NCBI GenBank assembly: GCA_020061125.1
Contig: JAGUYV010000421.1
Span: forward strand, 1 to 6,864
Direction: 5' to 3'
Source of the DNA: a bacterium
Lineage (GTDB): Bacteria > UBP15 > UBA6099 > DSWB01
DNA: 6,864 nt
In this document: positions 1,070 to 5,435 of the stretch, in pieces
How the letters are laid out: every line of letters begins with the position of its first letter
Position numbering within the stretch: position 1 is the first letter of the stretch
Translations under genes and position numbers: made by a program
Notes under the pieces: generated by a model
What the model was told of the DNA's origin: nothing
Databases searched by the model: none
Seen by the model: only the letters and a program-made list of their open reading frames with translations

Positions 1070-1987
1070 TCATCTAAGACCCGCGGCTTCCACGATTTCC
1101 GGAACGGCCTCTTCCCACTCGATGGCCATGATGTGAACGCCTGCCACGCCCTTGATTTTGCGCAGCTTCTGGATGGTCTCCACGCACAGCTTGACGCCTT
1201 CTTCGCGCTGCTTGTCTTTGGGCGCGCCCTTGATGCGCTTGATCACCTCGTCGGGCACATCCATGCCCGCCACCTTGTCTTTCATGTACAGGGCCATGCC
1301 CGCGCTTTTGATGGGGGTCACGCCGCCGAGAATGTAAACTTTGTCCGCCAGGCCGCGGTCGCGCACGGCCTTCATCCATTTGGTGAATTTGGGCAGGTTG
1401 AAGATGCACTGGGTCTGAATGAACTGGGCGCCGTTGGCGATTTTTTTGGCGAGGCGGATGGCGCGGAACTCAAAGGGATCGGCGAACGGGTTGGCGGCCG
1501 CGCCGATAAACAGGCCGGGCCGGGCCGCGGGCGGGATTTCGAAGGAGTCGTAAATGAACCGGCCGCTGTCGCGCAGATCGCGGGCCGCGCCCAGGAGCTG
1601 CATGGAGTCCAGATCGAACACATTTTTGGCGTGGGGCTGGTTGCCGAAGCTCTGGTGGTCGCCGCTCAAGCACAGCATATTGTTGATGCCCAGGGCGGCC
1701 GCGCCCAGGATGTCGCTCTGGATGGCGATGCGGTTGCGGTCGCGGCACACGAGCTGCCACACCGGGTCGAGTCCGATGCTTTTGAGCAGCGCGCTCGCGG
1801 CCAGGCTGCCCATGCGCACGATGGCCGTCTGGTTGTCGGTCACATTCACCGCGTCCACATGTTTTTTGAGCAGCAGGCCTTTCTTGATGACAATGTCCGG
1901 GTCGGCGCTGCGCGGAGGGCCGCACTCGGCGGTCACGGCGAAGCCTCCGGATTCGAGAACGCGCTGGAGATTGCTGTTCGTGGTCAC
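1070..1987 (-). CDS. metF: Methylenetetrahydrofolate reductase MetF
   Basis: This is a full-length 305-residue MetF. It catalyses reduction of 5,10-methylene-THF to 5-methyl-THF on FAD, in the methyl branch of the Wood-Ljungdahl pathway and for methionine synthesis. The family landmarks are present: TAECGPP at 19-25 with the catalytic-type Glu21, NVTDNQ at 48-53, CLSGDH at 106-111 with the conserved flavin-site Asp110, AAANPFADP at 163-171, and the substrate-side GAQFIQTQ at 186-193. The start is GTG at 1987; its GTGA overlaps the metV stop by 4 nt, which indicates translational coupling. It lacks a long C-terminal extension, as expected when MetV is a separate polypeptide. The partner reductant cannot be read from sequence. 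The MetV and MvhD-type neighbours suggest ferredoxin or a complex-bound donor rather than free NADH, by analogy with acetogen MetVF. Confidence 0.97.
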   Translation of the reverse strand: MTTNSNLQRVLESGGFAVTAECGPPRSADPDIVIKKGLLLKKHVDAVNVTDNQTAIVRMGSLAASALLKSIGLDPVWQLVCRDRNRIAIQSDILGAAALGINNMLCLSGDHQSFGNQPHAKNVFDLDSMQLLGAARDLRDSGRFIYDSFEIPPAARPGLFIGAAANPFADPFEFRAIRLAKKIANGAQFIQTQCIFNLPKFTKWMKAVRDRGLADKVYILGGVTPIKSAGMALYMKDKVAGMDVPDEVIKRIKGAPKDKQREEGVKLCVETIQKLRKIKGVAGVHIMAIEWEEAVPEIVEAAGLR

Positions 1988-2652
1988 AGGATATTGTCCT
2001 CCCGGATGAGTTTTCGGGGGCCGCCGTGTCGAGCCGAGGCCCAGTTTTTGGGCGGTTCAGTTTGCTCCAGGGTGTCGAGCCGTCCCAGCGCCTTGAGGCG
2101 GTCATAGATCTCCTGCCACCCGCAGGGCACCGAGGGATCAATTTCGCACACGCCGCTGGCGGACCCGCCGCACGGGCCGTTGAACAGGCTCTTGGAGCAG
2201 CGGGTCACCGGGCATACGCCGCCGAAGCGCCCCAGCACGCAGTCGCCGCACCCCTGGCAGTTTTCGAGGAACATGCCCTGCTTGTCCAGCAGACCAAGGA
2301 AGGTGGTGTTGACCGCGGGCAGCACGGGCAGATGCGGGAATCGCGCGGCCAGCATCTGCACGCCCGCGCCGCACGCCATGCTCATGATGCAGTCGTGCCC
2401 GTTCAGGGCGCGCGCGGCCTCGTCAATAAATTCGTTTTCGCACTGGCGCTCTATGGTCACCTGGTCAATGCGCGCCTTCACGCCCGCCTTGTTGTTGGCG
2501 ATGCCGAGCTGGGACGCGAGAACGGCCACTTCCTTGTCTCCGCCCGCGAAGCACACCTTCACGCATGTGCCGCACCCGGCCAGCAGGATTTTCTTGTAAC
2601 CCCGCAGGAGGGATTGAATCTCCTCGAATGGTTTGCGTTCTCCGACAATCAT
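1984..2652 (-). CDS. metV: MetV, methylenetetrahydrofolate reductase small subunit (MTHFR C-terminal domain)
   Basis: This 222-residue protein matches the 'methylene-tetrahydrofolate reductase C-terminal' cysteine-rich family, called MetV in acetogens, where it binds MetF and carries iron-sulfur and zinc sites. Visible markers are GCGTCVKVCFAGGDKEV at 26-42 and a dense cysteine block at 132-177 (C132, C135, C138, C147, C152, C161, C169, C177) that includes NGPCGG and the C-terminal PCGWQEIYDRL. The frame is open further upstream, to 2823, but that extension is low-complexity and lacks family similarity. ATG at 2652 is preceded by GAGGTG (2659-2664) at 6-nt spacing, so I place the start there. 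It is coupled to metF by a 4-nt overlap. Its likely role is to pass electrons from a donor, perhaps via the MvhD-like protein, to the FAD of MetF. Confidence 0.93.
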   Translation of the reverse strand: MIVGERKPFEEIQSLLRGYKKILLAGCGTCVKVCFAGGDKEVAVLASQLGIANNKAGVKARIDQVTIERQCENEFIDEAARALNGHDCIMSMACGAGVQMLAARFPHLPVLPAVNTTFLGLLDKQGMFLENCQGCGDCVLGRFGGVCPVTRCSKSLFNGPCGGSASGVCEIDPSVPCGWQEIYDRLKALGRLDTLEQTEPPKNWASARHGGPRKLIREDNIL

Positions 2653-2922
2653 GGGTTGCACCTCGGCATAAAGAGTTAACGGTTCCGGACCGTTCAAGCA
2701 TAACCGAAAAAACAGGGCTGATGAAAGGGGGCGGGTTCGCGGCGGGCGTGCGCCCGCCGGTTGTGCGGAGTCCCGGCGCGGGCGGGATTCCCGGATAGCG
2801 GATGCTCGGAGTAGAGTCGTCACCTCAAGAGCGGCGCTGTGGGTACGGGAAGAGGGCCACGGACATCCCCGTTTCGCTCGAGGCGGCGGAAAGGGCAGGG
2901 CGGCTCACGATGCGGCCGCCAT
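2653..2922 (-). other. 270-nt gene-free leader before metV
   Basis: No coding sequence is convincing here. It holds a 9-bp perfect GC hairpin at 2740-2759 (CGGCGGGCG, 2 nt, CGCCCGCCG), a run of six T on the minus strand at 2712-2707 separated from that hairpin by 27 nt, the AACGGT/ACCGTT repeat at 2678-2694, and the metV ribosome site. The hairpin-to-T-run distance is too long for a normal intrinsic terminator. The stretch is unusually long for the inside of an operon, so an internal promoter or an mRNA processing site is possible. Confidence 0.45.
2678..2694. promoter_or_regulatory. Inverted repeat upstream of metV
   Basis: AACGGT and ACCGTT arms flank a 5-nt GC centre, ending 26 nt before the metV start. 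It is a candidate operator or a small RNA hairpin. A similar AACGG...CCGTT pair occurs at 3769-3786 upstream of the operon, with spacing one base longer. No convincing promoter elements could be set around it. Confidence 0.35.
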
Positions 2923-3003
2923 TTACCGCTGACGCACCGCCTGATACAGCTTCTTGCGGGCCTGGGCGATCTTTTTCGCGATTTCGATGACCTGGTTTTG
3001 CAT
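2923..3003 (-). CDS. Possible 26-residue peptide
   Basis: ATG at 3003 opens a 26-codon frame ending in TAA. It has an ideal AAGGAG ribosome site (3011-3016) at 7-nt spacing, better than that of its larger neighbours. The peptide is basic and helix-prone: it starts MQNQVIEIAKKIAQ and ends VRQR, with eight Lys or Arg and two Glu, and has no membrane span or cysteine. I do not recognise it. It lies between the MvhD-like gene (91 nt upstream) and metV (270 nt downstream). Its opening loosely recalls the N-terminal helix of iron-sulfur/F420-type oxidoreductase subunits, so it could be the stub of a degraded gene, but no continuation is seen in the other frames. It may be a real small protein, a leader peptide or a chance frame. 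Confidence 0.4.
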   Translation of the reverse strand: MQNQVIEIAKKIAQARKKLYQAVRQR

Positions 3004-3093
3004 GGCTGTTCTCCTTATATTTACAGGCCGGAGCGCGCGGGAAATTCGTCCCGGTGCGCGCGGCCCGCATAAGTGCGATGTCCGCGCGCGGAT

Positions 3094-3513
3094 TCAGCCC
3101 CGCTTGAGCGTGGCGGCGCCGAGCTTTGCGATGACCTTTTCAGCGGAAGAGATGATTTTGGCGTATTCTGTGGAAGCCGCGCCTTCGGCCATGTGCAGCA
3201 TGAGCCGTTCCGGGTCCACCCCGGCCTCGGCCAGAAGTTGCTTGGTGCGGGCGATGCGCCGCGCCTGGCGGCGGCTGCCCTCGATGGTCATGCACTGGCG
3301 CGGCGCGCACGCTATCACCAGCACGCCGTCCGCGCCGTTTTCGAACGCCTTCAGAATTTGAAGCGGCTCCACCCTGCCCGAGCACGGCACTTCAACCGTG
3401 TTCACGCCCGGAGCGCCCGCCTTTTGTTTGCCCTCCAGAGACCGGCTCCGGTACAGCGCATTATGGCAACAGAAGGCCGTGAGGCCGCCTTGTCTTGTGA
3501 GGGTCTGCGCCAT
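3094..3513 (-). CDS. MvhD/FlpD-family hydrogenase iron-sulfur subunit
   Basis: This 139-residue protein belongs to the MvhD/FlpD family, which carries a [2Fe-2S] cluster and passes electrons between a dehydrogenase or hydrogenase and a partner such as HdrA. Family signatures are FCC at 14-16, VPCSGRVEP at 42-50, KAFENGADGVLVIAC at 55-69 and the following C74, then EGSRRQARR. The usual FCC-x-x-C pattern is altered: residue 19 is Ala, leaving cysteines 15, 16, 44, 69 and 74. ATG at 3513 has GGAAGG (3523-3528) 9 nt upstream. It is the first gene of the metVF operon. No HdrA, HdrB or HdrC gene is visible, so the partner is probably MetV or a protein encoded elsewhere. Membership of the family is secure; the exact partner is inferred. 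Confidence 0.88.
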   Translation of the reverse strand: MAQTLTRQGGLTAFCCHNALYRSRSLEGKQKAGAPGVNTVEVPCSGRVEPLQILKAFENGADGVLVIACAPRQCMTIEGSRRQARRIARTKQLLAEAGVDPERLMLHMAEGAASTEYAKIISSAEKVIAKLGAATLKRG

Positions 3514-3665: not shown

Positions 3666-3895
3666 GGTGCGCAAGCCCCGGAAGCTGCGCTTTGCAGCAT
3701 AGATAATAGGCAAAAATGCCATAAAAATGCCACAACTTGCCGTAGGCTCCCCTGTATTCGGGCAATATAACGGAAATAATACCGTTAAAAATATTTTTGA
3801 AAAATATTTTAAAATCCGCTGAAAATCTGCATTCAACTTGATAAAAAAGGTGATTTGAGAATGCCGCAGGGTTATGCGAGCGCTGATTGAACGGC
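3666..3895. other. AT-rich gene-free stretch with repeats
   Basis: Composition changes sharply to A/T here. The stretch contains two copies of AAAAATGCCA at 3712-3721 and 3723-3732, exactly 11 bp apart (one helical turn). An inverted repeat TAACGG/CCGTTA sits at 3768-3787, directly followed by a perfect 11-bp A/T inverted repeat around a single G at 3788-3810. Open frames across it lack a ribosome site and resemble no family. It probably serves as the upstream control region of the MvhD-metVF operon. Confidence 0.5.
3788..3810. repeat. 23-nt perfect A/T palindrome
   Basis: Arms of 11 bp (AAAATATTTTT and its complement) flank a single G at 3799. It could be a binding site for a nucleoid or dimeric regulator, a bent or melting-prone element, or a cruciform. 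It abuts the TAACGG/CCGTTA repeat. Confidence 0.5.
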
Positions 3896-3928
3896 AACAA
3901 AAAGCCGCGCCAGAGAGCGGGGCGCGGC
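3896..3928 (-). terminator. Intrinsic terminator
   Basis: On the minus strand a perfect 8-bp stem GCCGCGCC/GGCGCGGC with a 9-nt loop (3928-3904) runs directly into TTTTTGTT. This is a textbook rho-independent terminator. It closes the transcription unit that carries the riboswitch and the 25-residue peptide, and insulates it from the MvhD-metVF operon downstream. Confidence 0.85.
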
Positions 3929-4162
3929 CTGTGCCGGGTGTGGCGCAGAGACCATTCCCGGCGGTTTGGAGAGAGAGGTTTGTGCTTTGCGGCTGCGTGC
4001 GGCAGGTGCGCGGAGCAGCGGTGCGGGGCGTCGCAAACCGGGGGGCGTGGGTGATGCGGGGAACCCCTGTCCGCCTAACCGCGCCTGTGCTTGCGCGCGC
4101 AAAGCGCTTTGTTTTTCCGGGCTATCCGCTCCTTTCTGCTGTTTTGTCTGCGCCCGTGGCGC
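3929..4162 (-). ncRNA. Untranslated 3' part of the riboswitch transcript, possibly structured RNA
   Basis: Between the stop of the 25-residue peptide and the intrinsic terminator lie about 230 nt with no credible gene. The frame that spans the lower part is Pro/Ala/Arg-rich and has no ribosome site. The RNA can fold: arms CGGTTTG (3962-3968) and CAAACCG (4034-4040) enclose a smaller GCTGC/GCAGC pair. Two overlapping palindromes, TTGCGCGCGCAA (4091-4102) and AAAGCGCTTT (4101-4110), follow upstream. It may be only a long 3' UTR, a functional RNA, or decayed coding sequence. I recognise no known RNA family. Confidence 0.3.
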
Positions 4163-4240
4163 TTACGCCATCAGCAGAATTGCGTACAGGAGACACATTG
4201 CGCAGAAGATGGCGAACAGGAACCGGCGTGCCGCTTTCAT
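4163..4240 (-). CDS. 25-residue single-span membrane peptide under riboswitch control
   Basis: ATG at 4240 is preceded by GGAGGTGA (4255-4248), a perfect eight-base match to the anti-Shine-Dalgarno sequence, at 7-nt spacing. The frame ends in TAA after 25 codons. The peptide has a basic start (MKAARRF) followed by about 18 uninterrupted hydrophobic residues (LFAIFCAMCLLYAILLMA), so it should form one membrane helix with the N-terminus in the cytoplasm. Two cysteines lie inside the helix. It is too short to be a cleaved secreted protein. The gene lies downstream of a c-di-GMP-I riboswitch core and upstream of an intrinsic terminator, with nothing else coding in the unit. I do not recognise a family. 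It may be a small regulatory membrane protein, a leader peptide, or the surviving signal sequence of a broken gene; the strong ribosome site favours a translated product. Confidence 0.6.
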   Translation of the reverse strand: MKAARRFLFAIFCAMCLLYAILLMA

Positions 4241-4288
4241 GGTTCTGTCACCTCCGTTTGTGCGCCACAGCCTCCTTGCAAAGCCGAA

Positions 4289-4331
4289 ACCCGCCTGCCC
4301 GTGCGTGGTGCGTGTGCCGTGGCAGGCGGGT
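4289..4331 (-). promoter_or_regulatory. Long GC hairpin between riboswitch and peptide gene
   Basis: Perfect 11-bp arms ACCCGCCTGCC (4289-4299) and GGCAGGCGGGT (4321-4331) enclose 21 nt. On the minus strand the stem is followed only by TTTCGGCTTT, a weak T-tract, so it is at best a poor terminator. It is probably part of the riboswitch expression platform, acting about 50 nt upstream of the peptide start. Confidence 0.5.
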
Positions 4332-4391
4332 CTGGTCCCGGCCGGGGGGATGGGCATGTGCTGCTTGCCGTTCCCGGTCGAGTCTGCCTTC

Positions 4392-4490
4392 GGCGGTCCG
4401 GCCGGCCTGGCGCGGCAGGGGGGCGTTGCCGCGCTTTAGCCCCGTGACTTTGCGTCCCCGCCTTTCAGCGGGTTTGCCTTTATCGGGCTA
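4392..4490 (-). promoter_or_regulatory. Cyclic di-GMP-I (GEMM-I) riboswitch
   Basis: The minus strand carries the GEMM-I core in order. First comes AAGGCAAACC (4480-4471). A 6-bp P2 stem (4472-4467 with 4462-4457) is capped by the obligatory GAAA tetraloop (4466-4463). Next is GGACGCAAAG (4457-4448), then TCACGGGGCTAA (4447-4436), which holds the tetraloop-receptor CTAA. A P3 hairpin GCGCGGCA/TGCCGCGC (4434-4410) follows. These match the c-di-GMP-I consensus almost base for base. By my alignment the base equivalent to Vc2 G20 is G4478, which fits c-di-GMP better than cGAMP (where it is A). The closing P1 stem is not obvious by eye, so the ends are approximate. Downstream lie a GC hairpin and the 25-residue membrane peptide gene. 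Confidence 0.85.
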
Positions 4491-4495
4491 CTTGT

Positions 4496-4538
4496 GTTAT
4501 TCCCCGTCCGCACCAGCCCAAACATGATCTGCGTCACA
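4496..4538 (-). promoter_or_regulatory. Possible CRP-type site and weak promoter for the riboswitch unit
   Basis: TGTGA-N6-TCATG (4538-4523) matches the CRP/FNR-superfamily half-site spacing, with one perfect and one partial half. A GAATAA -10-like hexamer lies at 4502-4497 with no good -35. The site would be centred about 40 nt upstream of a start near 4490, the usual place for class II activation. This is suggestive only. Confidence 0.3.
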
Positions 4539-4566
4539 TTCCGGGCGGGGGAGGGAGAACAATACT

Positions 4567-4657
4567 TTGACACGGAGACCGCGGAGGCGCGCAGAGATGC
4601 AAAACAAGCAGCCCTTTCTCCGTGAACTCTGTGCCTGCTCCACGCTCTTCGTGTTAA
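4567..4657. repeat. Imperfect inverted intergenic repeat
   Basis: Arms CACGGAGA (4571-4578) and TCTCCGTG (4617-4624) pair, GGCGCGCAGAG is matched by CTCTGTGCC further in, and the outer ends TTGACACGGAG and CTCTTCGTGTTAA also resemble each other in inverse orientation. The word pattern (cacggag / cagaga / ctctgtgcc / ctccgtg) is of the kind seen in dispersed intergenic repeats of many environmental bacteria. It separates the pdaD and riboswitch units. No gene is visible from 4658 to 4781 apart from a GC hairpin at 4749-4769. Confidence 0.5.
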
Positions 4658-4748
4658 TCTTTGTTTTATCCTGCCGCGTGCGCATACACAGGCTATCCGC
4701 GGCGGCGGAGCGGGTTATTCGCAATGTCGGGAAGGGTAGCGCGTGGCT

Positions 4749-4769
4749 CGCGGCCGCTGGAGGGCCGCG
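4749..4769 (-). terminator. GC hairpin just after pdaD
   Basis: Arms CGCGGCC and GGCCGCG flank a 7-nt loop, 13 nt past the pdaD stop on the minus strand. There is no T-run, so it is a weak candidate terminator or a 3'-end stabiliser. Confidence 0.3.
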
Positions 4770-4781
4770 GCGCGCCCCGGA

Positions 4782-5339
4782 TCACGCCAGGAACACCGCG
4801 GCGGACAGTACGGTGAGCCACTTGGTGTTTTCGCATTTGCGCTTGTGCGTGCGCACGCAGGGGTAAGCCTGGGTGTTGACGATCTGGCCGGCGATGCGCC
4901 ATTCTTCGCGTTTTTCGTTCCAGGCTTTGTTTTCATCGAAATGCAGGCCCAGGCTGGCGGCCAGGAATTCCGCGGCCAGGTCTTCGGCCTCTTCGGCGAT
5001 TTCTTCCTCGTCGCAGCCGAACCGGTGAACCTCGCTCAAATACCCGTACCGGTTGCGGTCCGCAGGTTCGGCCAGGCCGATGGCCGCGCCCGCAATGCGG
5101 CCGTGCTCATTCGTGGACACTCGCGCCATCACGCAGTGGGTGATGGCCCCAGGCTCCAGTTTCTTGAGTCCGTACTCCAGATCCACGATCTTGCAGTGCG
5201 GCGGCAGAATCGAAGACACATACACCAGGTTCTGGCTCTGGATTCCGGCTTCGCACAGGGCTTTCTCGAACGAACCCAGTTCGTTGCGGTGCACGCCCCA
5301 GCCGGAGGTGAAAAACACTTTGGACGGAACATAGCTCAT
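4782..5339 (-). CDS. pdaD: Pyruvoyl-dependent arginine decarboxylase
   Basis: The 185-residue product is a full-length PvlArgDC proenzyme. It decarboxylates arginine to agmatine, the entry to polyamine synthesis, using a pyruvoyl group instead of PLP. Visible are the N-terminal YVPSKVFFTSGWGVHRNELGS, the self-cleavage site VSSILPP at 41-47 (cut between Ser42 and Ser43, the latter becoming pyruvoyl), GAAIGLA at 84-90, YGYLSEVHRFG at 98-108 with the conserved acidic Glu103, and the family-typical C-terminus KWLTVLSAAVF. ATG at 5339 is chosen because GAGGTGA (5351-5345) stands 5 nt upstream. An in-frame GTG at 5348 would overlap that ribosome site. The gene stands alone, diverging from the helicase gene. 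No other polyamine genes are visible in the window. Confidence 0.96.
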   Translation of the reverse strand: MSYVPSKVFFTSGWGVHRNELGSFEKALCEAGIQSQNLVYVSSILPPHCKIVDLEYGLKKLEPGAITHCVMARVSTNEHGRIAGAAIGLAEPADRNRYGYLSEVHRFGCDEEEIAEEAEDLAAEFLAASLGLHFDENKAWNEKREEWRIAGQIVNTQAYPCVRTHKRKCENTKWLTVLSAAVFLA

Positions 5340-5435
5340 AAGGCTCACCTCTCACATACGGAAAAATAGGCGCGGCCCGCGGAGTGTGCTGCTTCGCAAG
5401 CAACGCCATATATATTTTCACGATAAATCCCGGTT

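Follow-up and report, generated by a model that had tools for sequence, protein, structure and literature searches.

The riboswitch in the analysed window, a stretch of 6,864 nucleotides from a draft genome of 513 contigs with 79% completeness, belongs to the c-di-GMP-I class and is followed by a frame of only 25 codons for a hydrophobic, putative membrane peptide. To judge from its sequence, the unit looks like a duplicated promoter-riboswitch module of Tad pilin genes that now drives this tiny peptide. We read it as a duplicated module because the exact promoter motif with its identical spacing is exclusive to these riboswitches. The best overall explanation, to which we give about an even chance of being correct, is a stand-alone unit of ≈590 nt that arose from a Tad/Flp-pilin module and encodes no protein but a 25-residue single-pass membrane peptide.

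The aptamer (4388–4488, minus strand) is recognised by two Rfam covariance models. RF01051 (c-di-GMP-I, GEMM-I) scored 68.7 bits at 4488–4389(−) against a curated cut-off of 35, and RF03167 (c-di-GMP-I-GGC) scored 61.8 bits at 4487–4388(−) against a cut-off of 59 (E = 3.7e-13); the cmscan output named RF03167 alone. In the alignment an A follows GACGC where the RF03167 model has a G, and the recognition position just before GCAAAC is occupied by G. In Vc2 numbering we take the base after GACGC to be position 47 and the recognition base to be position 20. The aptamer exceeds the gathering score of the GGC variant, yet with A at position 47 it lacks the feature thought to define that subfamily. 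It shares the pocket residues G20 and A47 with RF01051 riboswitches, and it differs from cGAMP (GEMM-Ib) riboswitches, for which A20 is expected. Because position 47 is A and position 20 is G, c-di-GMP is a likelier ligand than cGAMP; on this reading the pocket is of the ordinary G20/A47 c-di-GMP kind and neither a GGC variant nor a cGAMP type. The near-consensus GEMM-I core of the original prediction was thus right, and the covariance check proposed with it gave a score above the cut-off. A search of Rfam between 3900 and 4800 yielded no further RNA family at E up to 1.

The ATG of the small frame lies 147 nt from the end of the aptamer, close to the distance of about 150 nt first given for the core. 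The frame (MKAARRFLFAIFCAMCLLYAILLMA, 4240–4163, minus strand) runs from an ATG to a TAA stop and encodes 25 residues with a K/R-rich N terminus and a single hydrophobic helix (best 17-residue Kyte-Doolittle mean 2.79). It is preceded, at a spacing of 7 nt, by the ribosome-binding site GGAGGTGA (4255–4248, minus strand), so that both the perfect ribosome site and the single helix of the original prediction were confirmed. To gauge how often chance yields this arrangement, we shuffled the 459 nt that follow the aptamer 20,000 times with a first-order Markov model. An 8-nt Shine-Dalgarno match before a frame of at least 20 residues arose in 11 of the 20,000 shuffles, a transmembrane-like frame with any start in one, and both together in none; the shuffle test was devised once the sequence was known and its figures are indicative. 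Chance is a very unlikely origin of a full 8-nt ribosome site well spaced before a clean hydrophobic-helix frame. The third codon positions have a GC content of 0.76 compared with 0.78–0.84 in the neighbouring genes, and codon choice leans weakly to the usage of these genes (p ≈ 0.05 against random synonymous choice). Pfam and NCBIfam gave no match to the peptide, the genome showed no second copy, and searches of seven genomes of the phylum (best other match E = 0.46), of plasmids and of viral contigs yielded no convincing relative. Since no homologue was detected in any of these, conservation lends no support to translation, and the peptide could be either lineage-specific or incidental to a riboswitch-controlled RNA.

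The peptide stop is followed by a structured, GC-rich 3' trailer (4162–3931, minus strand) whose open reading frames include no convincing gene and for which no Rfam family was found; a 76-residue frame within it could not be assigned to a family. The stretch 4162–3890, which includes the terminator, folds with a z-score of −2.14. The unit is closed 230 nt past the peptide stop by an intrinsic terminator (3930–3895, minus strand; −18.8 kcal/mol), a 10-bp GC-rich hairpin with the tail TTTTTGTT. A consensus terminator scan missed this hairpin because its loop of 9 nt exceeds the limit of the tool. The strong terminator that had been postulated is therefore present, yet outside the segment that the prediction had delimited. 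The absence of a larger gene also holds, in that no larger gene with a ribosome site lies on the same strand within ≈870 nt: the next frame on this strand that has a ribosome site and 50 or more residues, mvhD/FlpD, begins 874 nt after the aptamer, beyond the terminator and a further ≈380 nt of intergenic DNA. Genes for MvhD/FlpD, a MetV-like protein (DUF5981) and MetF, a Wood-Ljungdahl-type methylene-THF reductase set, lie consecutively at 1070–3513(−). A second tiny frame, MQNQVIEIAKKIAQARKKLYQAVRQR (2923–3003, minus strand; 26 residues, amphipathic and basic), is located between mvhD and the metV-like gene; AAGGAGAA precedes its ATG, and no convincing relative of it was found in the phylum.

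Upstream of the aptamer we found the promoter motif GTGAC-N5-TCATGTTT-N15-GGGAATAA (4537–4497, minus strand), which contains a CRP/FNR-like half-palindrome, and a −10-like AATAAC at 4501–4496. We infer that transcription starts near 4489, at the 5' edge of P1. The element TGAC-N4-RTCA would then be centred 41.5 nt before the start, as would be expected of a class II site for an activator of the CRP/FNR family. The exact motif has two sites in the genome, one before the first flp riboswitch and one before the riboswitch of the window, and one site each in the related genomes G002 and G006, again before flp riboswitches. With up to two mismatches neither a further site nor a control site was recovered. 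Note that the pattern was derived from these very sequences, so that the informative part is the exact spacing and the absence elsewhere. Farther upstream, at 4561–4682, lie fragments that have the look of dispersed intergenic repeats and match sequences on contigs C94 and C328 of this genome, and a gene for a pyruvoyl-dependent arginine decarboxylase occupies 4782–5348(−).

Three c-di-GMP-I riboswitches are present in the source genome in all. The other two are arranged in tandem on contig C321, each 79–80 nt ahead of a gene for a 61-residue Flp (Tad) pilin, and a prepilin-peptidase-like frame comes next. Between these tandem cassettes (L031, 5173–6237) lies a 53-residue frame beginning with MDERHALFLAVLIADVLVIRRYG that has a ribosome site and no family match. 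Among six relatives in the phylum, the riboswitch precedes Flp pilins in G001 (in tandem), G002 and G006; of the two copies in G005, one stands before a Flp pilin and the other ahead of a lipoprotein-like frame, and no c-di-GMP-I riboswitch was matched in G003 and G004. Over 105 nt, of which ≈50 nt lie upstream of the aptamer, the window unit and the first flp unit share 81% identity. With the Flp/Tad pilin units of the same genome and order (L001, L003, L009, L012, L013 and L022) it shares the aptamer, a similar leader length and a strong ribosome site, its aptamer-to-ATG distance falling at the upper end of the 79–146 nt of the flp units. Its promoter motif recurs in L001, L012 and L013 and, in a relaxed form, in L009. 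The pilin genes of these units comprise 57–61 codons, whereas the window has an unrelated frame of 25 codons in their place, with no adjacent tad genes and no Flp pilin gene downstream. The upstream arginine decarboxylase is present in four relatives at 52% identity; in these the riboswitch matches stand only before flp (G002, G006) or are missing altogether (G003, G004). The context that suits the window unit best is a pilus-type regulon, because its module is paralogous to the Tad-pilin promoter-riboswitch units elsewhere in the genome.

A strong leader hairpin, ACCCGCCTGCC/GGGCAGGCGGGT (4332–4288, minus strand; −30.0 kcal/mol), is followed by a weak, interrupted U tract and probably belongs to the expression platform. 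A comparable hairpin with a T5 tract is found at the same place in the leader of the first flp unit of G001, for which reason attenuation is possible. The 3' strand of P1 can form a competing pairing in the window leader (GCCGAA/UUCGGC), but over 6 nt only, which at a shuffle frequency of 0.24 is not significant, whereas it is complementary over 8–9 nt in the flp leaders of G001, G002 and G006 (shuffle frequency 0.002–0.03). When the aptamer was held in constrained folding, the accessibility of the ribosome site did not change (0.11 unpaired either way). In L009, L012, L013 and L022 the complement to the P1 3' strand GCCGAAGT, 8–9 nt long and located 30–33 nt before the flp ATG, co-varies between units and is likely an expression platform that controls the Flp pilins.

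How rare such a target is was estimated from a survey of 111 c-di-GMP-I loci of the phylum and many other lineages, in which an automatic rule looked for a frame of 18–49 residues that has a membrane helix and precedes the first frame of 50 residues or more. Two of the 111 were selected, the window and L153. The 22-residue frame of L153 was rejected as a second case, since its ribosome site is weak and a longer frame follows immediately. The window is thus the one surveyed locus where a tiny membrane frame is the sole gene close by, a count that is approximate, as the rule found no early frame at a few loci. The N termini of many other targets are signal-peptide-like or pilin-like. In a different lineage that shares only the domain, a c-di-GMP-I riboswitch precedes a Flp-pilin-like gene (L123, genome G252).

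The usual target of RF01051 riboswitches is a motility, pilus or matrix gene, and a 25-residue peptide departs from this. Small targets have been described in Clostridioides difficile, where class I c-di-GMP riboswitches precede 58-residue proteins (PMC11477304) and four regions that arose by recent duplication and contain hypothetical genes (PMC3649979), and where the cdi1_4 and cdi1_5 riboswitches control the antitoxin RNAs in toxin-antitoxin pairs of type I (PMC7699646). These systems (small hypothetical proteins such as CD1990.3, CD2309, CD1424 and CD3368.2; the antitoxin RNAs RCd11/RCd12) are likewise duplicated c-di-GMP-I modules with a small protein or RNA as sole target. However, they come from a different phylum without detected relationship, their small proteins are more than twice as long as the window peptide, and no antisense partner was seen at the window locus. 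The claim of an unusual target therefore stands in part: the tiny peptide is the sole recognisable gene of the unit, but the module is paralogous to the genome's own Tad-pilin units, and C. difficile already provides examples of duplicated c-di-GMP-I riboswitches that are followed by a small product. What appears to be new is a 25-residue membrane peptide that shares its promoter-riboswitch cassette with Tad pilins. A literature search found no paper on such a pairing. To our knowledge, the peptide would be the shortest protein target of any c-di-GMP riboswitch.

Our model takes as its computed elements the aptamer, the shared promoter motif, the ribosome site, the frame and the terminator, to which ligand, regulator, translation, topology and function are added by inference. 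With a CRP/FNR-family-like activator bound around −41.5, transcription would begin at ≈4489, where the aptamer has its 5' edge, and c-di-GMP would bind to the nascent aptamer. Through the leader this binding would act on either the ribosome site or the leader hairpin, and the peptide would be produced in step with the Tad pilus as part of the same regulon. With K2, R5 and R6 ahead of the helix, it would presumably insert in an N-in/C-out orientation and could act as a small accessory protein or modulator of an inner-membrane complex, possibly related to the pilus or to signalling. Only ≈13% of the ≈590-nt transcript would be coding, which we count against this explanation. That the peptide is a functional effector is a hypothesis, and we consider it rather unlikely, if conceivable, that c-di-GMP directly controls, via a copied Tad-pilin riboswitch module, a stand-alone 25-residue effector that regulates, for instance, pilus assembly or a different inner-membrane complex.

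A rival explanation is that the product is the RNA itself, a c-di-GMP-controlled small RNA with a functional 3' trailer in which the small frame is incidental or a leader. The trailer of ≈230 nt folds better than most shuffles and ends in a terminator, and the antitoxin RNAs of C. difficile are a precedent (PMC7699646). However, the z-score is modest, the trailer belongs to no Rfam family, and a ribosome site with a helix frame was never obtained by shuffling; we regard this explanation as unlikely. Slightly less probable still is a c-di-GMP-gated membrane peptide that resembles a type I toxin. A very short, hydrophobic single-helix peptide with a basic N terminus would suit such a role, as would the physical linkage of c-di-GMP-I riboswitches to type I toxin-antitoxin pairs in C. 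difficile, but there the riboswitch drives the antitoxin RNA and not the toxin (PMC7699646). Moreover, the peptide has no family match and is present in a single copy, the annotated neighbours show no sign of mobile elements, and a consensus scan confined to promoters of the sigma-70 type detected none on either strand at 3800–4800, and so no antisense promoter of this type.

We give the same low probability to a decaying duplicate of a riboswitch-flp cassette that has lost its pilin, the frame being a remnant or a chance product. The promoter and aptamer are clearly of the flp-unit type and flp duplications occur in the lineage, yet the 507 nt after the aptamer contain neither similarity to pilin protein or flp DNA nor a GQGxTEYAL motif, and an intact promoter, aptamer, ribosome site and terminator are unlike decay. 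A search for a pilin remnant by tblastn with five Flp proteins and by blastn against contig C321 returned only noise downstream of the aptamer. A partial match of 13 residues to the 53-residue inter-flp frame (E = 0.008 in the 507-nt search space) contains an internal stop and was judged to be due to chance. Read-through into the mvhD-metV-metF operon, with the peptide as a leader peptide, is highly improbable: the operon does lie downstream on the same strand, but the good intrinsic terminator and the intergenic DNA behind it intervene, and mvhD is remote from the aptamer.

Should the cell make the peptide, RNA would wire a second messenger of surface life straight to a micro-protein, and a cassette of promoter and riboswitch would be common to pilus genes and this micro-protein. 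The unit would then be an example of riboswitch modules reaching new targets through duplication, and annotation pipelines that skip frames this short could make riboswitches look orphaned. The surface-attachment signal of the cell may thus control a very small membrane protein.
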